From contig WHVA01000317.1 in the NCBI GenBank assembly GCA_015179125.1, forward strand, positions 62,001 to 126,000: DNA of 64,000 nt, given 5' to 3'. This document shows positions 6,930 to 64,000 of the stretch, piece by piece; position 1 is the first letter of the stretch; each line of letters opens with the position of its first letter. The notes under the pieces are model-generated. The model did no database searches, was not told where the DNA came from, and was given only the letters and a program-made list of their open reading frames with translations. Source of the stretch: Gautieria morchelliformis. Taxonomy: Eukaryota; Basidiomycota; Agaricomycetes; Gomphales; Gomphaceae. The position numbers and the translations under genes were made by a program.

Positions 6930-7416
6930 TGTAGGCAACTTGGGGTTATGGCAGGGAAGGTTCGGTAAAGTTCTTAGAAAGCTAGAATCAAATACACTCT
7001 CTCAGTGAATTTATTGTCACTGTTATATTAATACAATACCTAGAATCAAATACACTACATGATTTTTAGTCAACATGCTATGTAAATATGAAAGATACTA
7101 CTCGCCTCTCTCAGTGAATTTATTGTCACTGGGAGAGGAGTACTACTCTGTCTCAGAATGCATATACGTGCACCCGGCCCTTTAGCGCCCAAGGGCTCGC
7201 GCGTCGAAGTCATTTCAAACTCCGCTGGGTGCAGCCGCTTGTGAAAATAGAAATAACAGAACAAAATGGAGAGGTAGAGAGTGACTGGAAAATTTCGAAA
7301 ATAAGCAGAGAAGTGAATGCATGGTACAAGAACAATGTGAGAAAGAATTAGAAACCATACAACAAATCGAATATATTATGCTTGATTTTGGTGCAGGAGC
7401 TTGTATGCACCCAACA
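6930..7416 (-). repeat. Solo Copia LTR (type D)
   Basis: 487 bp on the minus strand, TGTAGG at the low end and CCAACA at the high end, with a perfect 5-bp target repeat ATTGC at 6925-6929 and 7417-7421. No element body follows, so it is a solo LTR. Its outer part is alignable with the LTR at 62872-63368 (shared TGCACCCAACA and GGGCGCTAAAGGGCC-like stretches). It carries the doubled hairpin module: hairpins at 6997-7022 and 7106-7131, tags at 6982-6996 and 7040-7054, and a 51-nt intron-like stretch at 7055-7105. Confidence 0.85.
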
Positions 7417-9755: not shown

Positions 9756-11483
9756 TGTAGAGGACAGGAATTATAGGCAGTAGGTTGTGGACAAGTTTCC
9801 TTTTTGAGCTGCGGCTGTTCACTACCGTGCTACGTTCTATGGGCGCTTAGTATGGCACACCGTGGCACCATGGGCGCTAAAGGGCCGGCTAGTAGTACAT
9901 GCGCATGAGACACATTTCCCCCCTCTCTCAGTGACAACTAAATTCACTGAGAGAGGCAAGTAAATTAGTCTTGTTTCCTTTCGATTTGTTGACCTAGAAA
10001 TACTGTAGTGAATTAATTTCTAGGTAGTGTATAATATATTTACAGTGGCAACTAAATTCACTGAGAGAGTGAATTAATTTCTAGTCTTCTTTTGAGCACC
10101 AAGTCCAAACCTACTGCCTATAATTCCTGTCCTCTACAGGGTTATGGGCCCCGGAGACACTTCACAGAAGCTTTTGGGTGTTGAGAAGCTTGCTACAGAT
10201 GGAAGTAATTGGCCATTGTGGCGAGCCACTCTCATCAGCTATTTCGAGTCCAAAATTCTACTCAAGCATGTAGAAGGGAGAGTCACTCGACCTCCTGATC
10301 CTCCAGTCATTCCCCCAGGCCATATTCTTACAGAAGCTGAGGAAACTCAGATGGATAAGGCTGAGGAGAAGCTGGAGAGATATCGCTAGAGAAGAACAAG
10401 CCAAGACCCAAATCATCGTCTCAGTGTCAGAGTCACTAGCTCTGATGCTACAGAAGCAAAAGACAGCAAAAGAGACTTGGGATGCACTGGTCAATGAAAT
10501 GACCAAAAAGCCCAAGATGGTCCTCACCAGCCTGCAGAGACAACTCCGCAGTATGAGATGTCCTGAGGATGGAGACTTGAGAGACCACTTGGACAAGGCC
10601 CAAGACCTATATGCTCGTCTTAATGAGATGGGAGCCAGAGTTTCTGAAGAAGAATTTATGGACATAATCCTTGCATCACTTCCACCATCCTATGAGGCAG
10701 TCATGAATGCCCTCACCACTTCGCTTGAAGAATGCGGGAGACCCTTAGTCCCTAATGACAGGAAGAAAACACTCCCGCAAGAAGAGCAGGTGTTTATTGG
10801 TTCATCTACTAAGAAGGACCAGAAGGGGCAGAAGGCACATACATGCACCAACTGCAAAAAGCCTGGACATTCTATCGAAAATTGCTGGGCTAAAGGAGGT
10901 GGTAAAGAAGGTCAAGGACCACGTCAGAAGAAAAAGGCCAAAGGCAAAAAGAAGAAGGGTAAAGCAAAAGCGAATGTTGCCGATGAAGACACCTCTTCTG
11001 AGGAAAGTGATGATGGGCATCTTGCCTTCACCAATTTCGACGAGTGCTCTAATTTTAATTCGAGCACATCCTCAGGAGTTGTAGTGATACTCGACACCGG
11101 AACGACATCGCATATGACACCTCATAAAAATTTATTGAGGAACTACTGTCAATTCTCACAGCCGAGGACTATCCGAGCAGCCAACAAAGGCACTTTTGAT
11201 CCCTTCGGCTCAGGACTGCTCGTATTATCCAATAAGGTTGGAGATAAAACAGTAGAAGTCATGTTGCAAGACACATACTATGCACCAAAAATTGCTGCTA
11301 CCCTCGTCTCAATCGGTCGGTGCGATGATGCTGACTATGATATTCGACTCGGTGGCCAGAAATGCACAATATCTAACACTGCTGGAAAGATATTGATGCA
11401 AGCACGGAAGATCAATGGCTTATATCGACTAGACCTCCAGTCACCAAGTCCAAACCTACTGCCTATAATTCCTGTCCTCTACA
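9756..11483 (+). mobile_element. Copia element 1, internally deleted, with inverted ends
   Basis: Ty1/Copia fossil bounded by a 5-bp target repeat TATAT (9751-9755, 11484-11488). Parts: 5' LTR 9756-10138; primer site plus gag start at 10139-10151; gag with zinc knuckle (CTNCKKPGHSIENCW, near 10840-10890); protease (LDTGTTSHM, near 11090); then the last ~45 bp of a 3' LTR. No integrase or reverse transcriptase part is seen. Unusually, the first 30 bp of the element are an exact inverted copy of its last 30 bp. The LTR has hairpins 9929-9955 and 10043-10069 with tags 10009-10023 and 10070-10084. Broken, a few breaks. Very close in sequence to the element starting at 62872. Confidence 0.85.
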
Positions 11484-11690
11484 TATATATAGTAGGAATC
11501 TTCCCAGTGTCTATTTTGCTGCCACTGGGAAGTAAGTACTTATCTTGTATAACAAAGCTCATAGCTAACTAGCTTGTAGTTTACTATCTTTAGGTAGTGT
11601 ATAATAGTGTCTATTTTGCTGCCACTGGGAATTTAACTACTATCTTTAGGTTATGAGCCCTGGCCCTACCTTCTGAATTTACAGTGACAA
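11484..11690 (+). repeat. Copia LTR (type E) 3' part and primer site
   Basis: Tail of another Copia LTR: hairpin 11505-11531, intron-like stretch 11532-11579 (GTAAGT, internal GCTAACT, TAG end), tag 11580-11593, TATA-like stretch, hairpin 11605-11631, tag 11632-11649. At 11649-11663 comes GGTTATGAGCCCTGG, the exact complement of the anticodon arm of eukaryotic initiator tRNA-Met. Copia element 1 inserted into this LTR. Confidence 0.75.
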
Positions 11691-22931: not shown

Positions 22932-24851
22932 TCAATGGTCAGTCGTCGACTTATACGCTGGCGGTACTTCCGCTTCCGTCACGTCCGAAATATCCTCATG
23001 CTGGTATACAGTCTCGCGCCGCTGCTCGGGGGGCTCGGGTCCCAGCTTCTCATCATCATCAAGTGGGTTCGGGTTGGCAACAGCAAAGCGTCCTGACGAT
23101 GGTCCTGCCTCAGCGGACCCAGCAACAGAGCCACCACGTGCTGCATAGCCCGCGCCAGCGATACGCATAGCTGTGGATGCATCTGTACTCTCCGACGGGT
23201 TAGAGGGCGCAACGGATCCCGCGGCATAGGCGGCATATGGATCAAAGTCTGCAGCAGAAGGTGGCGGCGATATAACCGCATTCGACCCTAGGTTTTGTTG
23301 CATTGCATAAGGTAGTGCTGCTCCTGGAGGAGCGTAGGGTGCAGCAGAATAAGTCGATGTTCGACTCTGCGTGGCGGGCGCCAGGGTCGCTTCTGGTGTC
23401 GCGATCGAGTAGTTGCTCGTATATGTACTGTATTGGTATGGTGGGTTGTCCATGTATGGAGTGGCTTGTGCGCCTGACGTCACGTAGGGTGAGATCTCCC
23501 CTGAGACACTTGAGAATGGGGCCTTCTGGCCTGGTACGGGATCCCCGACCTTTCCTGATCCGAACCCATTGTAGCCATCGTCCAGGGGATATGGGCGTTG
23601 AGCAGTTGCCCTTCGCCACATCGGAAAAAAAAACGCGCCGAGGACAAGCGCAACAATGAGCACCGCACCGCCGAGTGAGCCACCGACGATCGCGCTCGTG
23701 GAGGGCGAGCTGCTTGACGCACTGCTGTTTGACCCAGACGATCCCCCAGAGGGAGCCGTTGCAGCAGAAGTGCTAGATCTAATGCGGACAAATGATCAGG
23801 GGCAGCGAGACCAGCGTTGAGGAAAGTCGACTAACTGCGCCGCCGATGTCTGTGCTGAACTATCGAACTCTGTCGATGTCTGATTTGCACACGTCACGTC
23901 TGTGGAGCCAGACGTGCTGAGAATGTTCGTTGAGGGAGCATATACTCCCTGGCTACGAGAATCTTAGTTTAGGGTCGTATGCTTGACGCGCTCGCGGAAA
24001 TAACTCACGCATCGCTGACGGACGCTATACATTCAATTAGGACCAGACCAAAACAATGTCAGAGAACGTACCTATTATCTGTGAATTGGGTGAGGCGCGG
24101 TTCACCCAATTGTATGTGTCAAAAGCAGCCCCAAGAGTAAAGTTTGTCACGACAGAGTTAAGGAACGCAACGGTTACGGTGTATGGCTTAGTGCCGCCCG
24201 ACATCCTCAGTGGTAGAACCTCACAGGTCGTGATGGCGTTCGTCGTATTGGTCGTCATTGATATGGGAGAAATTGGGCTGTTAGCATGGCATGCCGTGCC
24301 AGATGTGGAAGCTGGCACACAAACCGTTACGGCTGGACGCTATACAGCGAGAACCATATGACTTACGGACTACAGTATAGACTGGTTGGCCAACACCACC
24401 TGTATTCCCTGCTGAATCAGCCATACTAATAGCCAGCTGCGATTCTACACGGAACAACGCGTCTGAGATCTCTCACAACAAGTGGAACTCTATGTCTACT
24501 CACGCGATGCATGGTCTACTGTCCAGAATAAATTGTTCGGGTCGGAACCTACTAACTGTCTTGTGGGTATGCCGCCTGACTCATAGGCAAAAAGGGTGTA
24601 GGGTGGTTGGGCAGGGGTGCTCATCCCAGATGTATCAAGATAAATTTGTAGGCGTCCGCACTCGGGCAACGACAAGGAAGTGAACTAAGAGCAAAAGGAG
24701 AGGTATCAGATAGGTTATCTGACGAACCATGTCTTGTCCATACCGTCTTAAACCCCCAAACAAATGACTGATTTACATCAGCGTGTGCAGTCCCCGCCAG
24801 AAAAGCAATGGTTAACAGACTGATGATACCTCGTCGCGATTTTGAAGCCAT
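22932..24851 (-). CDS. Single-pass membrane protein, array copy A
   Basis: Minus-strand gene with about seven exons and introns near 35-60 nt. Exon 1 starts MASKSRRG and holds a signal peptide (cleavage after AHA). Exon 2 reads SLSLPECGRLQIYL ... PPYTLFAYESGG ... LFWTVDHAS, the ectodomain pattern of many basidiomycete surface proteins. The next exons carry VTVCVPASTSGTACHA and several N-glycosylation sites. Then come a Ser/Thr-rich stalk, one membrane helix (SAIVGGSLGGAVLIVALVLG) and a ~225-residue tail rich in Pro, Ser and Tyr, ending in PPAY and STTDH. A PPxY motif is a known ligand of WW-domain ubiquitin ligases such as Rsp5. I infer a plasma-membrane sensor or adhesion role of the SKG6/Mid2-like kind; the true partner is unknown. 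The total is roughly 500 residues. The whole-looking Copia element lies about 520 bp upstream. Confidence 0.75.
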
Positions 24852-25371
24852 TATTGTAAGAGGAATGTTGTCCCTACACACCGGGGAAGACACTGTATGA
24901 TGGCAAATGTGAAAGGTTCAGTGGGAAAGAAACTGCAGCAACAATTGACCTTGATCGGCAGATGTGTGCACAGCCCAGCCCGCCTTGACGCGCTGGTCAC
25001 CGATTCGCGAGTCGCGAATACACCGTGACGACCCGCACCTGCGGTACCGATGGTCCAAACTAGTAAGATATCGTTAGCTAGTAAAAGCCTATACCTCGAA
25101 TAGTACCTCTGTTAATTCTCCCTCCTAGAACAGAAACTCGTCATGTACGCCTGTGAACTCGATCGACGAGAGCCTCACGTGTTCTACCAACAAAGGCACG
25201 TGGTCCCTTTCCCCAGCGACTAGCGAGGATGTATACCGGCGCTACTACAGACTTTGATCGACTCGGTGGCAGATCCGACGGGAGCACCCGGGGGCACGTG
25301 ATTTAGAGTCACGTGACCCCCTGTCGAATCGTTGAGCATGAGCGTGCCACAGGATGCGGAGGGGAACTCCA
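24852..25371. promoter_or_regulatory. Upstream region of copy A, cut by Copia element 2
   Basis: Matches the upstream regions of copies B (33962-34440) and C (37629-37800). It holds CACGTG E-box-like words near 25295. The region continues at 30228 after the Copia insertion, so promoter elements beyond 520 bp are now 4.9 kb further away. Confidence 0.5.
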
Positions 25372-25687
25372 TGTTGGAGTCAGGGTCGGTAAGCGGAGAA
25401 CGCAGGGCCAAGTAGGTTAGGGGAAGGCTTTATCATCGTATAGTAAAACAGTATTACTGGCCTCGGTCAAGTATGACCGAGGCCCTATATCTACTCGCTC
25501 CACAATCGCTAACCCCTCAGTGAACTGACCGTTCACTGAGGTACGTGCCCCCATCCCATTATGCATCCCAATAGTATACTTACTGTTGTGTAGGCTTCAT
25601 TCTATTAGGTAGAGTACTTATATACACTCAGTGAACTGACCGTTCACTGAGGCTTCATTCTATTAGACACTGCGCATAACCGCTACA
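25372..25687 (+). repeat. 5' LTR of Copia element 2
   Basis: TGTTGGAGTC to CCGCTACA. Hairpin 25516-25540, intron-like stretch 25541-25593 (GTACGT to TGTGTAG, 53 nt), tag 25594-25608, TATA-like CTTATATACA, hairpin 25627-25651, tag 25652-25666. Confidence 0.95.
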
Positions 25688-25691
25688 GGTT

Positions 25692-28313
25692 ATGGGCCCC
25701 GCAGAGCCCACAACGTCTACCCCCACCTCCAAGTCGTTCGTCGTCCCGAAGCTGGCCAGGGACGGCACGAACTGGGTCACCTGGAAAAGCCAGACGTTAG
25801 CTACGCTGGCGGCGACCCGTGGTGCGAAGCGCCACCTAGAAGGGACCGCTCGGATCCCTCGCACGATCCCGACATACCCCAACGGCTACACGCTCACAGA
25901 CAAGGAGGAAGAGGACCTAGAGGATCTCGAGAAACGCTGGGACGACTACAATCAGCGCGAGGCAGCGATAATGGCACAAATATTTACCACTGTCCCCGAT
26001 AGCGTCCTCATCGAAGTCCGCAACCTAGCGACAGCAAAGGAGGTCTGGGAGGCCGTATGTGCAAAGCACGAGACAAGGGCACTCACGGTCAAGGTTGACA
26101 TGCGACGACGCATGTACGAGCTGAAATGCGAGGACGAATCGAACGTCCGCACGCACCTGGAATCCCTCATGAGAATGCAGGAGCAACTCGCAGGGATGAA
26201 CGCGGGACTCACCGATGACGACCTTGTCACCGTCATCCTCGGCTCGCTCCCGAAGTCGTATCGGCCGCTCATCAATGCGATAACGATGTCGGCGACTCAC
26301 GCAAAGGCAAGACTTGAACCGGACCAGGTAGTCAGCACTCTAATCGACGAGTTTGAGCGATTAGCAATCGAAGAACGACAATTGAAGGCAAGTGAGAACG
26401 CACTTGCGGTGGTCAAGAGTCGTGGAAAGCACCAGCCACGCAGCAGTGGTTCCAATACCACGCGGACAGATGTGGAATGTTGGAAGTGCGGCAAAAAGGG
26501 GCACCTCAAAGCAGACTGTCGTTCTAAAGGCAAGAAAAAAGAAAAAAAGGACGAGGACAAGAAAGGAGGCGACTCGGCGAACGCAGCAGTAGAAGGCGAG
26601 GATTTCGCCTTTACCACGACGCTCGCTGGGACCGCGCTTGCGCTGGGAACGAGTCGATCAACGGGGCGAGAAGTCGACGTGTACGACTCGGGCGCGTCAG
26701 GCCACATGTCGCCGAGTAGGCATCGCTTCACCACTTTCAGTGAGATCGCGCCGCGGACAGTCACTGCCACGGACAAGACAGTCTTCAAGGCTACCGGGAT
26801 AGGTAGCATGAAGATCGGGATACCTAATGGTAGAACAACAACGTACGTTACCTTGAAGGACGTACTGTACTGTCCCGATCTCGCGTTTACACTCGTCTCC
26901 CTAACGCGATGCGACGCGGCTGGCTACACTGTTCTACTCAAGAATCAGAAATGTTTAATTCGAGACAAGAAAGGGACATTACTTGGTCAAATCCCGCTCT
27001 CGAATGGCCTGTATAAAGTAGAACATCAGTCTACTGCAGCAGCAGCGAGTACTACACGAAAAGTACTCACATTGGACGAGTTACACCGCCGGATGGGACA
27101 CATATCGCCCCAGGCCGCCCGCAAGCTCATCCGAGACCGAATCGTCACTGGACTAGATCTCGACATGGCGAGTCAGCCAGGCTTTTGCACGGAGTGTGCA
27201 CAAGCCAAACCTACCCGAAAATCCGTGCCACAGAAACGGGAGGGGCCGCGAGCCACCAAATTCGGCGAAAAAGTGCACTCGGACGTCTGGGGGCCCGCAA
27301 ACCCCCAGAGCTACGACGGAAAAGATTATTTCGTCAGTTTCACCGACGACTATAACCGGTGGACTTACCTGGTACCAATGGCTAGGAAAAGCGACGCGTT
27401 CAACTGCTATAAGCAGTACGAGGCGTGGGTCGAGACGCAATATAACGCAAGAATAAAACGCTTACAGACTGACCGCGGGGGTGAATACCTCTCCGACGCC
27501 TTCACAGCCCACCTAAAGTCAAAGGGGACGACCCGGAGCCTCACGGTGCACGATACCCCTGAAGAAAACGGCGTGTCAGAACGTTTGAACAGGACGCTGC
27601 TAGAACACGCACGTGCAATGCTCCTGGCAGCTGGATTACCGAAGTTTCTGTGGACTGAAGCGGTACAGCACGCAGTCTGGCTGAAGAACCGGACTTCAAC
27701 GCGTGCACTCAACGGTAGGACGCCGTATGAGATTGTGCACGGCGTGAAGCCGAATCTCACGGATCTACCAGAGTGGGGAACTAGAGTCTATGTTCTAAAA
27801 GAAAGCAGTAGTAAGCTAGACTCGAAGGCGGATGAAGGAAAATGGGTGGGGTATAGCGATGAGAGCAAAGGGCACAGGGTCTACTGGCCCGGGAAACGCC
27901 GCGTCACAGTCGAAAGGAACGTCACGTTTGACGCCCTTGTCCTTGTGACCCCCAACGACGGTCTGACTGAGGGGGAGTCGTCCGCTCCAGACACTCAGGA
28001 CGTCGTCGGCGGCGTTCCCGCTCCTCGCACACCCCACCAGCACCCGCCACTACAGCCCCCGGACCCGGAAGCAGGCCCCGCAGACACCGGGCGAATCGAT
28101 CCCCTCGAGGAATTCGAGATTGCGGATCTCCCGACAGACCCGCCCCAAGGAAGGGGCCACCGCACGCGGAAACCGTCCGCGTACGTGCGGGGGATCGCGG
28201 ACGGCGTGGGCAGCAGCACAGGTCGCCCACACGCACCCGCGTACCCCCGAGGTCTGCCGATGCCCACAAACGACTCAGCCCTAGTCGCGCTGACAGGGGC
28301 GGAGGGGAGATGA
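25692..28313 (+). CDS. Copia element 2 gag-protease-integrase
   Basis: 873 codons. The ATG lies inside the primer site (GGTTATGGGCCC). Order of parts: gag helical region (residues 1-235); zinc knuckle CWKCGKKGHLKADC (about 258); protease VYDSGASGHM (about 330); GAG-pre-integrase HRRMGHIS (about 465); integrase zinc site ending CTECAQAKPTRK; DDE core with HSDVWGP, TDRGGEY and ENGVSERLNRT (about 530-640). The C-terminal ~120 residues are Pro-rich. Confidence 0.9.
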   Translation: MGPAEPTTSTPTSKSFVVPKLARDGTNWVTWKSQTLATLAATRGAKRHLEGTARIPRTIPTYPNGYTLTDKEEEDLEDLEKRWDDYNQREAAIMAQIFTTVPDSVLIEVRNLATAKEVWEAVCAKHETRALTVKVDMRRRMYELKCEDESNVRTHLESLMRMQEQLAGMNAGLTDDDLVTVILGSLPKSYRPLINAITMSATHAKARLEPDQVVSTLIDEFERLAIEERQLKASENALAVVKSRGKHQPRSSGSNTTRTDVECWKCGKKGHLKADCRSKGKKKEKKDEDKKGGDSANAAVEGEDFAFTTTLAGTALALGTSRSTGREVDVYDSGASGHMSPSRHRFTTFSEIAPRTVTATDKTVFKATGIGSMKIGIPNGRTTTYVTLKDVLYCPDLAFTLVSLTRCDAAGYTVLLKNQKCLIRDKKGTLLGQIPLSNGLYKVEHQSTAAAASTTRKVLTLDELHRRMGHISPQAARKLIRDRIVTGLDLDMASQPGFCTECAQAKPTRKSVPQKREGPRATKFGEKVHSDVWGPANPQSYDGKDYFVSFTDDYNRWTYLVPMARKSDAFNCYKQYEAWVETQYNARIKRLQTDRGGEYLSDAFTAHLKSKGTTRSLTVHDTPEENGVSERLNRTLLEHARAMLLAAGLPKFLWTEAVQHAVWLKNRTSTRALNGRTPYEIVHGVKPNLTDLPEWGTRVYVLKESSSKLDSKADEGKWVGYSDESKGHRVYWPGKRRVTVERNVTFDALVLVTPNDGLTEGESSAPDTQDVVGGVPAPRTPHQHPPLQPPDPEAGPADTGRIDPLEEFEIADLPTDPPQGRGHRTRKPSAYVRGIADGVGSSTGRPHAPAYPRGLPMPTNDSALVALTGAEGR

Positions 28314-29899
28314 CCGCTGCCACAGCGCACAGCCCAGGGCCCGACCCGACTAACCTCGACGACGCCCGTTCCCGCGCTGACTGGCCGCAGTGGGACGCGT
28401 CGATCAGGCGGGAGTTGGACCAACACGCGGCGCTGCGCACCTGGGACCTCGTCGAAGCCCCGGATGGCGCAAACATCGTGGGGAGCAGGCTCGTGTTTCA
28501 TTACAAGCATGACGCGGAGGGAAAGGTTGTAGATCGAAAAACGAGGCTCGTCGCGCAAGGATTCTCGCAGGCACATGGAATTGACTACAATGAGACCTTC
28601 TCCCCCACAGCAAAGCTCTCTGCTATCCGAATAATCGCAGCCATTGCAGTCCGGAACGACTGGGAACTCGAACAAACGGATATAGATGGCGCGTACTTGA
28701 ACGCACCAATCACGGAGACCATATACATGCGACAGGCCAGGGGATATGAAGCCCCTGGAAATGAGCACAAGGTCTGCCGGCTCAACCGTGCGATATACGG
28801 ACTGAAGCAATCCGGTAGGGAATGGTACGACACGCTGCGCGGGTTCATGAACCAATTTGGGTTCACGCGCTGCGAGACGGAACACGCAGTCTTTCACAGG
28901 TATGCCGGACAGGACGCGCTTATCGTCGCGGTCGACGTAGACGACCTGACCATGGCCGGAAGCTCGAAGAGCGCGATCCTTGAATTCAAGAACGAGCTAC
29001 GTACGGTCCTCAAAATCAAGGACTTGGGTGACCTGCATTGGCTATTGGGTATAGAGGTGAAACGGGTGCGCGAGACGCGCACAATATCGTTCTCACAACA
29101 TGCTTACATCGAGAGAATTCTCGAAAGATTTGGTCTGCAAGATGCGAACGCCCTGAGCACGCCGCTCGACCCGCATCACAGGCTATCCCTATCCCAATCG
29201 CCCACCACTCCTCGCGAACGCCAAGAGATGCACGCCGTACCGTACAGGGAAGCTATCGGCTCACTCATGTACGCGGCACTGGGCACACGCCCTGACATTG
29301 CGTTCGCGGTGTCCTTCTTAGCTCAGTTCATGCAAGACCCCGGGAGGCCGCATTGGGAGGCGGTCAAACGCGTGTTTCGATACTTGAAGGGCACAAAGGG
29401 CGTAGCCCTAACTATCGGCGGATATCGCAGGGGACTGGAAGCGTTTTCTGACGCTGACTGGGCATCACAAGAACACCGACACTCGATTTCGGGGTACGTA
29501 TTCACAATCGACGGAGGCGCTGTGTCTTGGAGTTCCAAGAAGCAGCCGATCGTCGCGTTGTCAACAACGGAGGCGGAATACGTTGCAGCGACTCATGCCG
29601 CGAAGGAGGCTTTGTGGATACGCGCCTTCCTGGCAGAGATCGCCCGACCACTCATCCAGCCCATCACCATCCACCTCGACAATCTCTCTGCGATATCTAT
29701 CACAAAGAACGACGAGTATCACCCGAGGACCAAGCATATTGATATACGGTATCATTTCATACGCCACGCGGTACAAAGACAACTACTGTACATCGACTAC
29801 GTACCGACAGATGACATGGCAGCCGACATATTCACTAAAGCCCTCCCCCGACACAAGGTTTTACACCTGACCGCCCTACTTGGTCTACGTTCGGCTTAA
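28310..29899 (+). CDS. Copia element 2 reverse transcriptase-RNase H
   Basis: 529 codons. Reverse-transcriptase motifs of the Copia type (KTRLVAQGFSQ, QTDIDGAYLNA, LKQSGREWY, VDVDDLTMAG, SLMYAALGTRPDI), then RNase H (FSDADWASQEHRHS, STTEAEYVAA, KHIDIRYHF, TKALPRHK). Confidence 0.9.
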   Translation: MTAATAHSPGPDPTNLDDARSRADWPQWDASIRRELDQHAALRTWDLVEAPDGANIVGSRLVFHYKHDAEGKVVDRKTRLVAQGFSQAHGIDYNETFSPTAKLSAIRIIAAIAVRNDWELEQTDIDGAYLNAPITETIYMRQARGYEAPGNEHKVCRLNRAIYGLKQSGREWYDTLRGFMNQFGFTRCETEHAVFHRYAGQDALIVAVDVDDLTMAGSSKSAILEFKNELRTVLKIKDLGDLHWLLGIEVKRVRETRTISFSQHAYIERILERFGLQDANALSTPLDPHHRLSLSQSPTTPRERQEMHAVPYREAIGSLMYAALGTRPDIAFAVSFLAQFMQDPGRPHWEAVKRVFRYLKGTKGVALTIGGYRRGLEAFSDADWASQEHRHSISGYVFTIDGGAVSWSSKKQPIVALSTTEAEYVAATHAAKEALWIRAFLAEIARPLIQPITIHLDNLSAISITKNDEYHPRTKHIDIRYHFIRHAVQRQLLYIDYVPTDDMAADIFTKALPRHKVLHLTALLGLRSA

Positions 29900-29906
29900 G
29901 GGGGAG

Positions 29907-30222
29907 TGTTGGAGTCAGGGTCGGTAAGCGGAGAACGCAGGGCCAAGTAGGTTAGGGGAAGGCTTTATCATCGTATAGTAAAACAGTATTACTGGCCTCG
30001 GTCAAGTATGACCGAGGCCCTATATCTACTCGCTCCACAATCGCTAACCCCTCAGTGAACTGACCGTTCACTGAGGTACGTGCCCCCATCCCATTATGCA
30101 TCCCAATAGTATACTTACTGTTGTGTAGGCTTCATTCTATTAGGTAGAGTACTTATATACACTCAGTGAACTGACCGTTCACTGAGGCTTCATTCTATTA
30201 GACACTGCGCATAACCGCTACA
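29907..30222 (+). repeat. 3' LTR of Copia element 2
   Basis: Same length and, as far as I can read, the same sequence as the 5' LTR. Hairpins 30051-30075 and 30162-30186; tags 30129-30143 and 30187-30201. Confidence 0.95.
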
Positions 30223-31640: not shown

Positions 31641-31975
31641 AATATAGACACGAACATCGTAGCTTTTGTAGCCACCCCTCAACCCCTGAGGCAAATGACG
31701 CACCATACATATTGCAAAGTGACGGCAAACGAGCGCCTGTGGACCTAACTTATGAACGTAATAATAGGGGGATGCGTAGTTTGCGCAGAATCGATGGCCT
31801 ACGCAGTCTCTTGACCCACAAAATTTAATCCGGCCTAGAGAACTTATAAATCTGTTTGACACGTGCAAGTTTCCGCACTGTAAAGATGCTAGAATGTCCT
31901 GGTCTGTCCCCACATAGCACAATGCGCTTTATCCACAAGCGCCCATGCAAAAGAAACTTCAAGACACAGCACAGC

Positions 31976-33961
31976 TCAATGGCCAATCCTCGACTTGTAC
32001 GCCGGCGGTAGTTCCGTCACATCCTCGATATCCTCATGCTGGTACACAGTCTCGCGCCGCTGCTGCGGGGGCTCGGGTCCCAGCCTCTCATCGTCAAGTG
32101 GGCTCGGGTTGGCATCAGCAAAGCGTCCTGACGATGGTCTTGCCTCAGCGGACCCAGCAACAGAGCCACCACGTGCTGCATTGCCCGCGCCAGAGATACC
32201 CATAGCTGTGGATGCACCTGTACTCTCCGACGAGTTAGAGGGTGCCATGAATCCCGCAGCATATGGATTAAAGCCTGCAGAAGACGGTGGCGGCGATATA
32301 ACCGCATTCGACCCTAGGGTTTGTTGCGTTGCATAAGGTAGTGCTGCTCCTGGAGGCGTGTAGGGTGCAGCAGAATAAGTCGATGTTCGACTCTGCATGA
32401 CGGGCGCCAGAGTCGCTTCTGATATCTCGTTCGAGTAGTTGCTCGTATATGTACTGTTTTGGTATGGTGGGTTGTCCATGTATGGAGTGGCTTGTGCACC
32501 TGACGTCACGAAGGGTGAGGTCTCCTCTGGGACACTTGAGAATGGGGCGTTCTGGCTTGGTACGGGATCTCCGACATTTCCTAATCCGGACCCATTGTCG
32601 CCATCGTCCGGGGTATATGGGCGGCGAGCAGTTGCCCATCGCCGCATAAAGAGGACAAGCACACCAAGAAGCACCGCACCGCCAACTGCGCCGCCGACGA
32701 TCGCGTTCGTGGAGTTGGTTGAAGCATCGCTATTTGACCCAGACGATCCCCCAGAGGTAGCAGTCGCTACCGTGGAGGGTGAGCTGCTTGAAGCACTGCT
32801 ACTTGACCCAGACGATTCCCCAGAGGTAGCAGTCGCAGCAGAAGTGCTGGATCTAATGCGGACAAATGATCAGGGGCAGCGAGATCAGCATTGAGGAAAG
32901 TCGACTAACTGCGCCGCCGATGTCTGTGCTGAACTATCGAGCTCTGTCGATGTCTGATTTGGACACGTCACGTCTGTGGAGCCAGACGTGCTGAGAAGAT
33001 TCGTTGAGGCAGCATATATTCCCTGGCTACGAGAATCTTAGTTCAGGGTCGTATCCTTGATGCGCTGACGGAAATAACTCACGCATCGCTGGCGGACGCT
33101 ATACATGCAATTAGGACCAGACCAAAACAATGTCAGAGAACGTACCTATTATCTGTGAATTGGGTTGGGCACGGTTCACCCAATTGTATGTGTCAGAAGC
33201 AGCCCCAAGAGTAAAGTTTGTCACGAAAGGGTAGTCAATAGACGCAATGGTTACAGTGTATGGCTTAGTGCCGCCCGACATCTTCAGTGGTAGAACCTCA
33301 CATGTCGTGATGGCGTTCGTTGCATTAGTCGTTATTGATATTGGAGAAATGGTTGGGGTGTTAGCATGGCATGCCGTGCCAGAGGTGGAAGCTGGCACAC
33401 AAAACGTTACGGCTGGACGCTATACAGCGAGAACCATATGACTTACGGACTACAGTATAGACTTGTCCGCCAACACCACTTAAATTCCTTATTGGACCAC
33501 CTAAATTCCCTGCTAAATCAGTCATACTAAGAACCAGCTGCGATTCTACGCGGAACAACGCGTCTGAGATCTCTCAACAAGTGGAACTCTACGCTACTCA
33601 CGCGATGCATGGTCTACTGTCCAGAATACATTGTTCGGGTCAGAACCTATTAACCGTCTTGTGGGTATGCCGCCTGACTCATAGGCAAAAAGGATGTAGG
33701 GTGGTGGGACAGGGGTGGTCATCCCAGTTGAATCAACAATTGAATCAACAAAAAGTTCTAGGCTTCCGCACTCGGGCAACGACAAGGAAGTGAACTAAGA
33801 GCAAAAGGAGAGGTATCAGATAGGTTATCTGACGAACCATGTCTTGTCCATACCGTCTTAAACCCCCAGCCAAATGTCGGATTTACATCAGCGTGTGCAG
33901 TCCCCGTCAGAAAAGCAATAGTCAACAGACTGATGGTACCTCGTCGCGATTTTGAAGCCAT
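31976..33961 (-). CDS. Single-pass membrane protein, array copy B
   Basis: Paralogue of copy A with the same exon plan. The start is MASKSRRGTISLLTIAFLTG (signal peptide), and the later ectodomain exon reads VCVPASTSGTACHANTPT. Transmembrane part: AIVGGAVGGAVLLGVLVL. The tail keeps PPAY and ends KSRIGH. Two differences stand out: the Ser-rich stalk just before the membrane helix is longer because a ~55-bp segment is doubled (about 32719-32850), and the tail is shorter by several residues in the DPYAAG block. All splice-site words of copy A are kept, so it probably makes protein. Function as for copy A. Confidence 0.75.
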
Positions 33962-34554
33962 TATTATAAAAGGAATGGTGTCCCTACACACCGGGGAAGA
34001 CACTGTATGATGGCAAATGTAAAGGTTTGGGGAAGAAACTGCAGCAACAATTGACCTTGATCGGCAGATGTGTGCACAGCCCAGCCCGCCTTGACGCGCT
34101 GGTCACCGATTCGCGAATATGTACATTGTGACGACCCGCACCTGCGGTACCGATGGTCCGAACTAGTAGGATATCGTTAGCTAGTAAAAGTCTATACCTC
34201 GAATAGTACCTCTGTTAATTCTCCCTCCTAGAACAGAAACTCGTCATGTACGCCTGTGAACTCGATCGACGAGAGCCTCACGTGTTCTACCAACAAAGGC
34301 ACGTGGTCCCTTTCCCCAGGTAATTAATGGGTTGAAGTCCGCTAGACTAGGCGAGAATGTATAGCGGCGCTACTTTGATCGACACTCGATACCTGGGTAC
34401 ACGTGATTCAGAGTCACGTGACCCCTGGCGAATCCTCGAGCGTGAGGGAAACTGCAACACCCATACTCGCTGAGGATTGACGGGACGTGAGTTCCACTCC
34501 AATTAACTCACACCTCCCCACCATGCAGCAAGGAAGGTTCCAAGGAATACATAC
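33962..34554. promoter_or_regulatory. Upstream region of copy B
   Basis: Matches 24852-25371 plus 30228-30350 in unit A, without the Copia element. Two CACGTG words occur near 34280 and 34400. Confidence 0.5.
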
Positions 34555-35380: not shown

Positions 35381-35724
35381 GTTAACTTAGAGAATACAGA
35401 CACGATACGTCGTAGCCTTTGTAGCCACCCTCAACCCTGAGGCAAATGACGCACCCTACATATTGCAAAGTGACGGCAAACGATCGTACGAGCGCCCGTG
35501 GACCTTATGAACGCAATTAATGTTCTTCAAAATAGGAGGATGCGTAGTTTGCGCATAATCGATGCCGGCCTATGTGGAATTTATAGATCTGTTTGACACG
35601 TGCAAGTTTCCAATGGCAGTGTAAAGATGTTAGAATGTCCTGTGTATAGCAAATAAACAGAAACAAAATAAAATAAAATAAAGCAATGCGCTTTATCCAC
35701 AAGCGCCCATACAAAAGACACAGC

Positions 35725-37628
35725 TCAAGGGTCAGTCCTCTCCTTATACGCTGGCGGTAGTTCCGTCACGTCCGAGATATCCTCATGCTGGTATACAGTC
35801 TCGCGCCGCTGCTGCGGGGGCTCGGGTCCCAACTTCTCATCTTCAAGTGGGCTCGGGTTGGCAACAGCAAAGTGTCCTGACGATGGTCCTGCCTCAGCGG
35901 ACCCAGCAACAGAGCCACCACGTGCTGCATAGCCCGCGCCAGCGATACGCATAGCTGTGGATGCACCTGTACTCTCCGACGAGTTAGAGGGCGCAACGGA
36001 TCCAGGGGCATAGTCGGCATATGGATCAAACGATGCAGAAGACGGTGGTGGCGACATATCCGTATTCGACCCTAGGTTTTGTTGCGTTGCATAAGGTAGT
36101 ACTGCTGGAGGAGTGTTGGGTGTAGCAGAATAAGTTGATGTTCGACTCTGCATGGCGGGCGCCAGAGTCGCTTCTGATGTCCCGGTCGAGTAGTTGCTGG
36201 TATATGTACTGTATTGGTATGGTGGGTTGTCCATGTATGGAGTGGCTTGTGCACTTGACCCCACGAAGGGTGTGATCTCCTCTGAGGCACTTGAGAATGG
36301 GGCATTCTGGCCTGGTACGGGACCTCCGACCTTTCCTAATCCGAACCCACTGTAGCCGCCGTCCGGGGGATAGGGGCGGCGAGCAGTTGCCCTTCGCCGC
36401 CTCAGGAAAAAAAATGCGCCGAGGACAAGCGCACCAATGAGCACCACACCGCCAACTACGCCGCCGACGATCGCGGTCGTGGAGGGAGAGCTGCTTGAAG
36501 CACTGCTGTTTGACCCAGACCCAGAGGTAGCAGTTGCAGCAGAAGTACTGGATCTAATGGGGACAAAAGATCAGGGGCAGCGACACCAGCGTTGAGGAGA
36601 GTCGACTAACTGCGCCACCGTTGTCTGTCCTGAACTATCGACCTGTGTCGATGCCCGATTTGCACACGTCAGGTCTGGGGAGCCAGACGTAGTGAGAAGA
36701 TTTGTTGAGGCAGCATATATACCCTGGCTACGAGAATCTTAGTTTAAGGTCGTATGCTTGACGCGCTCACGGAATAACTCACGCATCGCTGACGGACGCT
36801 ATAGGTGCAATTAGGGCCAGATCAAAACCATGCCAGAGAACGTACCTATTATCTGTGAATTGGGTGAGGCACGGTTCACCCAATTGTATGTGTCAAAAGC
36901 AGCCCCAAGAGTAAAGTTTGTCACGACAGCCGAGCCAAGGAACGCAATGGTTACAGTGTATGGCTTAGTGCCGCCCGACATCTTCAGTGGTAGAACCTCG
37001 CAGGTCGTGATGGCTTTCGTTGTATTAGTCGTTATTGATATGGGAGAAGTTGGGTTGTTAGCATGGCATGCCGTGCCAGATGTGGAAGCTGGCACACAAA
37101 ACATTACGGCTGGACGCTATACAGCGAGAACCACATGACTTACAGACTACAGTATACAGTTGTTCGGCAACACCACCTGCATTCCCTGCTGAATCAGCCA
37201 TACTAAGAGCCAGCTGCGATTCTACGCGGAACAACGCGTCTGAGATCTCTCACAACAAGTGGAACTCTACGTCTACTCACGCGGCGCATGGTCTACCGTC
37301 CAGAATAAATTGTTCGGGTCAGAACCTACTACCTGTCTTGTGGGTATGCCCGCTGACTCGTAGGCAATAAGGGTGTAGGGTGGTTGGGCAGCGGTGCTCA
37401 TCCCAGATGCATTAAGAAAAATTTGTAGGCGTCCGCACTCGGGCAACGACAAGGAAGTGAACTAAGAGCAAAAGGAGAGGTATCAGATAGGTTATCTGAC
37501 GAACCATGTCTTGTCCATACCGTCTTAAACCCCCAGACAAATGACGGATTTACATCAGCGTGTGCAGTCCCCGCCAGAAAAGCAATGGTCAATAGCCTGA
37601 TGGCACCTCGTCGCGATTTTGAAGCCAT
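35725..37628 (-). CDS. Single-pass membrane protein, array copy C
   Basis: Third array copy, first in the direction of transcription. Same plan: signal peptide (MASKSRRGAIRLLTIAFLAG), ectodomain with VPASTSGTACHANNPT, Ser-rich stalk, membrane helix (AIVGGVVGGVVLIGALVLG), basic stop-transfer (RRRRATARRP) and a long tail ending PPAYKERTDP. The stalk is a few residues shorter than in A. It lies only about 270 bp from the 3' end of the Old Yellow Enzyme gene on the same strand, so its promoter must be compact. Confidence 0.75.
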
Positions 37629-37898
37629 AATTAGAAAAGGAATGTTGTCCCTACACACCGGGGAAGACACTGTGTGATGGCGAATGTAAAGGTTTGGGAA
37701 AGAAACTGCAGGAATACAATTAAGCTTGAGCGGCAGATGTGTGCACAGCCTTCCCTGATGCGCTTCACCGAATACACCGTGACGACCCGCCAGGCCGAAG
37801 CCTGCCGAGCCTCACACGTATTTATATCCAGTAATTACAGTCATGTATTTCTTTGGTATAAAGCATGATATAACACGTGTGGCAACCCAACCGTCCCT

Positions 37899-62871: not shown

Positions 62872-64000
62872 TGTTGGGTGCATTGATGCTCCTGCACCAA
62901 AATCAAGCATAATATATCCAATTTGTTGTGTGCTTTCTCAATTTCTTCTCATTTTGTTCTTGTATTATGCATCCATTTCTCTGGTTATTTTCGAAATTTT
63001 CCACTCACTCCCTGTCTCTCTATTTCATTTTGTTATTCCTACTTTCACAAGCGGCTGCACCCAGCGGAGTCTGAAATGACTTCGACGCGCGAGCTCTTGG
63101 GCGCTAAAGGGCCGGGTAGTAGTACATGCGCAGTGAAACAGTTTCCCCCTCTCTCAGTGACAACTAAATTCACTGAGAGAGGCAAGTAAATTAGTCTAGC
63201 ATTCTTTCGATTTATTGACCTAGAAATCCTCTGTAGTGAATTAATTTCTAGGTAGTGTATAATATATTTACAGTGACAACTAAATTCACTGAGAGAGTGA
63301 ATTAATTTCTAGTCTATTCTTTTGAGCAACAAGTCCATACCTACTGCCTATAATTCCTGTCCTCTACAGGGTTATGGGCCCCGGAGACACTTCTGAGAAG
63401 CTATTGGGTGTTGAGAAGCTTGCTACTGATGGAAGTAATTGGCCATTGTGGCGAGCCACTCTCATCAGCTATTTCGAGTCCAAAAATCTACTCAAGCGTG
63501 TAGAAGGGAGAGTCACTCGACCTCCTGATCCTCCAGTTATGCCCCCAGGCCATATTCTTACAGAAGCTGAGGAAGCTCAGATGGATAAGGCTGAGGAGAA
63601 GCTGGAGAGATACCTTGCTAGAGAAGGACAAGCCAAGACCCAAATCATCGTCTCAGTGTCAGAGTCATTAGCCCTGATGCTACAGAAGCAGAAGACAGCA
63701 AAAGAGACTTGGGATGCACTGGTCAATGAGATGACCAAAAAGCCCAAGATGGTCCTCACCAGCCTGCAGAGACAACTCCGCAGTATGAGATGTCCTGAGG
63801 ATGGAGACTTGAGAGAGCATTTGGACAAGGCCCAAGACCTATATGCTCGTCTTAATGAGATGGGAGCCAGAGTTTCCGAAGAAGAATTTATGGACATCAT
63901 CCTTGCGTCACTTCCACCATCCTATGAGGCAGTCATGAATGCCCTTACCACTTCGCTTGAAGAATGCGGGATGCCATTGGTCCCTGATAATATTATTAGG
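62872..64000 (+). mobile_element. Copia element 3, 5' end (runs off the window)
   Basis: 5' LTR 62872-63368 (497 bp, TGTTGGGTGC to CCTCTACA), primer site and gag start at 63370-63385, gag open from 63375 to the window end (MGPGDTSEKLLGVEKLATDG). The LTR has hairpins 63155-63181 and 63271-63297, an intron-like stretch 63182-63236, and tags 63237-63251 and 63298-63312. No break is seen in the part visible here. It is the close relative of element 1. Confidence 0.9.

Follow-up and report, generated by a model that had tools for sequence, protein, structure and literature searches.

Passage through RNA is expected to strip introns from LTR elements, and Penelope-like elements are a retroelement group noted for intron retention. 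To our knowledge, foamy viruses have one R region and no intron inside the LTR, and the LTRs of Drosophila copia and yeast Ty1 have neither an intron nor a duplicated R. In the foamy virus LTR, the poly(A) signal is preceded by the major splice donor, and U1 snRNP suppresses the poly(A) site at the 5' end (PMC3694450). Searching the literature for phrases that describe an intron in an LTR produced matching passages only on a vector named LTR1 and on the bacterial gene ltrB; the matched portions of PMC4558846 concern LTR-driven fusion transcripts rather than an LTR intron, and those of PMC5014426 hold nothing on LTR introns. Here we describe a Copia element of Gautieria morchelliformis whose LTRs carry the same block in a split and a joined form. 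Within the literature searched, this layout is new among Copia elements.

A block carried twice by a Copia LTR

The element, designated E2, occupies positions 25372-30222 of the 64-kb stretch of DNA that was analyzed (the window) and consists of two LTRs and an internal coding region. The 5' LTR (25372-25687, plus strand; 316 nt, TG...CA) is an exact repeat of the 3' LTR (29907-30222, plus strand), and CTCCA stands at both outer ends of the pair as a target duplication. The primer binding site GGTTATGGGCCC (25688-25699, plus strand), which we take to match an internal part of initiator tRNA-Met, abuts the 5' LTR, and the purine tract AAGGGGGAG precedes the 3' LTR, as in Ty1/Copia elements. Pfam searches identified gag, a zinc knuckle, and integrase in ORF1 (25680-28313, plus strand, stop to stop; 877 amino acids) and the reverse transcriptase (RT) domain RVT_2 in ORF2 (27971-29899, plus strand, stop to stop), which is in a different frame; gag and integrase thus lie upstream of RVT_2, the Ty1/Copia order (PF14223, PF00665, PF07727). 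The 27971-28313 overlap of the two ORFs, in different frames, may reflect recoding or damage. Three related stretches with tandem minus-strand reading frames occur nearby (22932-25216, 31970-34319, and 35719-37707), with E2 between the first and second.

Each E2 LTR contains a 40-nt block twice, once split by 53 nt and once joined. In the 5' LTR, where all features lie on the plus strand, the upstream copy consists of a 25-nt palindrome (HP1, 25516-25540), the gap (25541-25593; GTACGT...CTTAC...TGTAG), and a 15-nt tag (TAG1, 25594-25608). An 18-nt spacer, GTAGAGTACTTATATACA (25609-25626), which starts with GTA and has TATATA inside, leads to the joined copy, HP2 (25627-25651) followed directly by TAG2 (25652-25666). 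When the gap is excised in silico, HP1 plus TAG1 matches HP2-TAG2 at 40 of 40 positions. The gap can be placed in four registers (AGG is common to its borders), a single one of which gives GT..AG. A TATA-like sequence, TATATC (25486-25491, plus strand), lies 30 nt upstream of the left edge of the block and may act as the promoter; a second palindrome, GGCCTCGGTCAAGTATGACCGAGGCC (25459-25484), is found just upstream of this box. Because the two LTRs are identical, the whole layout was transmitted intact at the last transposition. The original prediction had located the palindromes, gap, and tags, had claimed that removing the gap recreates the downstream block, and had called the gap intron-like. 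Its coordinates are correct and the 53-nt length exact, the 40/40 identity bears out the second claim in the 3' LTR as in the 5' LTR, and the gap is built like a genuine intron, with the borders and the donor, branch, and acceptor signals of one.

Recurrence, splice signals, and agreement of the copies

To search for the layout itself, we scanned both strands of the window for any block of 12+10 nt that occurs once joined and once split (gap of 30-400 nt, copies within 600 nt), with no splice motif required. The only matches were E2 and three LTRs (E1, E1b, and E1c) that belong to a second Copia family, and shuffled controls contained no such block (0 in 20 windows, each mononucleotide-shuffled within blocks of 200 nt and scanned on one strand). 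A decayed fifth module, E3, which lies by a PBS-like site, was missed by the scan and spotted by eye. The E1 module (9929-10084, plus strand) consists of HP1 (9929-9955), a 53-nt gap (9956-10008; GCAAGT..TGTAG), TAG1 (10009-10023), a spacer, HP2 (10043-10069), and TAG2 (10070-10084). The E1b module (63155-63312, plus strand; LTR 62872-63368) has HP1 at 63155-63181, a 55-nt gap at 63182-63236 (GCAAGT..TGTAG), TAG1 at 63237-63251, HP2 at 63271-63297, and TAG2 at 63298-63312. On the minus strand, the E1c module (6982-7131) sits in a solo LTR of 487 nt (7416-6930) with GCAAT on both sides, its parts being HP1 (7131-7106), a 51-nt gap (7105-7055; GCGAGT..TGTAG), TAG1 (7054-7040), HP2 (7022-6997), and TAG2 (6996-6982). 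The E3 module (11506-11649, plus strand) comprises HP1 (11506-11531), a 48-nt gap (11532-11579; GTAAGT..CTAAC..TTGTAG), TAG1 (11580-11593), HP2 (11606-11631), and TAG2 (11632-11649, with a 4-nt insertion). The comparison of further LTRs called for by the original prediction thus reveals, within the 64-kb window, the same arrangement in mostly different letters and with matching splice signals, in four modules beyond the one originally noted; all five modules come from this one window, and three belong to one family.

The E2 LTR gave no blastn match to the other module LTRs (E 0.01, plus strand), and E1 and E3 matched each other only in TAG|GTAGTGTATAATA at E 0.01. The E1 product, in which gag and a Pol beta-barrel domain were the only domains identified, is 27.5% identical to that of E2 ORF1 over 385 columns. 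A CAGTG..CACTG palindrome core is common to all five modules, so they are not wholly unrelated, and the layout may be a single invention that was inherited. The E1 LTR (9756-10138) has a first part with no match to E1b or E1c, so E1 looks recombinant. The apparent start of this LTR, TGTAGAGGACAGGAATTATAGGCAGTAGG, recurs as the reverse complement at its end, an unusually long terminal inverted repeat. Its last 42 nt recur directly before the E3 module, at the end of the E1 gag reading frame, which makes 11442-11660 a composite stretch. A further Copia-like LTR (E4, 55264-55042, minus strand) lacks the duplicated block, its longest internal exact repeat being 8 nt; together with a piece at 53030-52638, it forms a diverged Copia-like remnant with the same primer site and one stop in the RT piece. 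Relatives of the RT protein were absent from viral contigs, and 16 pattern-matching stretches in prokaryotic genome contigs encoded none. Palindrome patterns in viral contigs and the block pattern in genome contigs likewise returned no relatives, from collections that are viral or prokaryotic and have little bearing on fungi. Rfam gave a single match, at 18.2 bits versus a gathering score of 90.

All five gaps end in TGTAG and combine GT/GC..AG borders, an RNGT donor tail, a YAG acceptor, and a YTNAY branch-like site. Of the branch-like sites, the one in the best position is CTTAC in E2, TTGAC in E1, E1b, and E1c, and CTAAC in E3, 11-18 nt from the end. After shuffling of the E2 gap, GT/GC..AG borders with donor, YAG, and branch site were found together in 0.014% of 200,000 trials, and the corresponding range for the gaps is 0.007-0.03% of trials per gap, figures that are not to be multiplied because the module lineages are not independent. 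The gap lengths of 48-55 nt are near those of two inferred host introns, 2 of 10 candidates listed, both in a gene with a match to DNA polymerase epsilon. The downstream side of the first (51440-51380, 61 nt) runs into an aligned stretch of the match, and the second (47330-47281, 50 nt) is located where the alignment ends. By borders, signals, and host-like length, the gaps would be classed as spliceosomal introns.

The split and joined copies within each LTR agree closely, with no differences in E2, E1b, and E1c, 1 in 42 positions in E1, and one 4-nt insertion in E3. E1b and E1c are distinguished by substitutions at 4 of the 15 tag positions and by a single indel in HP, and both copies in each LTR bear the same state; across the same pair, 26 of 55 intron columns and 12 of 19 spacer columns match. 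This agreement is exact at the splice borders, as expected from repeated copying off spliced RNA, and because different LTRs each keep their own agreeing pair, the copying process seems to recur. Among its suggestions, the original prediction had offered a split R region and a scar of a spliced RNA copied back into the LTR. The concerted change of both copies is what a split R region or a spliced copy-back would require, whereas a single scar fits poorly with different LTRs that each maintain two agreeing copies.

A proposed splicing-dependent cycle and its alternatives

We infer the start site, splicing, 3' end, and strand transfer of these modules as follows. The LTR would hold R, that is HP-TAG, in two forms: intron-split upstream and already spliced downstream. 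Element RNA would start at or just before HP1, and splicing would join HP1, as leader exon 1, to TAG1, making HP|TAG the 5' end of the RNA. The 3' LTR in the same RNA would stay unspliced and end in or after HP2-TAG2, which assumes that the intron 1 copy there escapes splicing. The RNA ends would then match solely through splicing, and minus-strand strong-stop DNA made from the spliced 5' end would land on HP2-TAG2 at the 3' end.

The edges of the block are consistent with a start at HP1. In four modules (E1, E1b, E1c, and E3), the outer 5' arm of the HP1 palindrome is missing from HP2, and the shared block begins (C)AGTG, as expected if the left edge of the block is the RNA start; E2, in which HP2 retains the full palindrome, is the exception. 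The edge varies slightly (CTCAGTG in E2, CAGTG, and AGTG). TATA-like sequences precede HP1 by 30 nt in E2, 33 nt in E1 (TACATG), 32 nt in E1b (TACATG), and 35 nt in E1c, and E3 has such boxes at several places, 18 to 42 nt before HP1; by this spacing, a start at HP1 is plausible.

The right edge suggests a second intron. TAG1 is followed by GTA in all five modules, whereas TAG2 is followed by ACA, TCT, TCT, CTT, and GTT, and the stretch from the spacer through HP2-TAG2 is itself bounded by GT..AG in every case (58 nt in E2, 61 in E1, 61 in E1b, 58 in E1c, and 56 in E3), a feature beyond those originally noted. The candidate intron 2 of E2 (25609-25666, plus strand; GTAGAG...TTAG) has a weak donor, as do the others: the donors GTAGAG, GTAGTG, and GTATTG are without the usual +5 G, and branch-like sites vary. 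In its most coherent form, the proposal has this second intron also leave the 5' leader, giving HP1|TAG1|U5 with TAG1 as a micro-exon. After one such cycle, the new LTR would still contain intron 1, and its HP2-TAG2 would have been rewritten from HP1 and TAG1. The spacer may hold the intron 2 donor, a 3'-end signal, or both, and removal of intron 2 would also strip any 3'-end signal there from the 5' leader.

To compare possible routes, we enumerated, as labels, where the RNA may start and end, how it may be spliced, and where the strong-stop DNA may land, allowing full-length strong-stop transfer only. The layout was restored by 15 of 82 routes, and among these 15, double splicing alone derives a fresh HP2 and a fresh TAG2 from HP1 and TAG1; when the DNA then lands on HP2 or HP2-TAG2 of the unspliced 3' copy, both are renewed and intron 1 is kept. 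Unspliced routes restore the layout and leave the downstream copy without renewal from the upstream one, HP1-to-TAG2 splicing renews HP only, and splicing of intron 1 alone either gains an extra unit or loses the intron. This outcome favors double splicing, with gain and loss around one intron next. We consider splicing with repeated copy-back, in some form, to be probable. Judged from sequence, we hold to be evenly balanced the reading that splicing of the upstream block gives the RNA a 5' end equal to the joined copy carried at its 3' end. The specific two-intron leader, with an HP exon, a 14-15-nt TAG micro-exon, and a U5 exon, in which each cycle rewrites the contiguous R and keeps the introns, is put forward tentatively.

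The one-intron version, which we think unlikely, has the leader keep the spacer and HP2-TAG2, so that landing on HP2-TAG2 adds a unit, slippage of RT between direct repeats removes one, and the copies are homogenized. All strong splice signals do sit in intron 1, the enumerated route onto HP2-TAG2 does yield a three-unit LTR, and reverse transcriptases slip between near repeats; however, none of the observed modules has three units, and the right edge of the block lies at TAG|GTA in 5/5, unblurred.

The original prediction had also raised a start at the downstream copy and pointed to the TATA-like box between the copies. With two promoters of this kind, RNA started at HP2 or TAG2 would be genomic and RNA started upstream would become spliced mRNA with the same cap-proximal sequence. 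TATA-like letters do lie between the copies, and in the enumeration the layout survives when an ordinary R is combined with a start at HP2 or TAG2, but these letters are only 6-13 nt before HP2 in four of five modules (E1c has no match), and a start 30 nt below them would fall near TAG2. The spacing makes a start at HP2 implausible, and we rejected a TATA-driven start there. Such routes also involve no copying between the upstream and downstream blocks, so the concerted change would be unexplained, and we regard two promoters as improbable.

Still less credible is a 5' leader intron that serves gene expression only, with the copies held alike by selection on a protein- or RNA-binding motif. 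The block does contain a palindrome with a core common to the five modules, and the 191-nt region folds more stably than its own shuffles (z -4.5), yet the non-palindromic tag also changes in step and the junction is exact in E2, E1, E1b, and E1c.

Finally, an old tandem duplication, after which about 53 nt were lost or gained in the DNA at a microhomology, with no intron, was rejected as the least credible origin of the gap: its borders have AGG in common in E2 and, within the E1 family, AG, but GT/GC..AG and splice signals occur in 5/5 modules, including E3 with its single register, and the split and joined copies change in concert.

Comparison with known retroelements

In the two-intron form, a Copia lineage would build its terminal redundancy by splicing. 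An LTR that keeps an intron beside its own spliced product would tie splicing to strand transfer, with matching ends found only on spliced RNA, and would give identical LTRs a new way to begin transcripts at one end and terminate them at the other; a 3'-end signal inside intron 2 would, in addition, resolve the 5'/3' poly(A) problem.

In its gag-integrase-RT order, RVT_2 domain, TG..CA LTRs, 5-bp target duplication, and primer site adjoining the LTR, E2 resembles ordinary Ty1/Copia elements such as Drosophila copia and yeast Ty1. Like Penelope-like elements, it would be a retroelement that keeps introns, although Penelope RT differs and those elements have no true LTR and another mechanism. 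The likeness to the foamy virus LTR (PMC3694450) is a splice donor within the terminal repeat and upstream of the 3'-end signal, a donor linked there to use of the 3' poly(A) site and neglect of the 5' one. Unlike in foamy viruses, here a whole intron, and perhaps two, apparently lies within the LTR, and R is present both split and joined.
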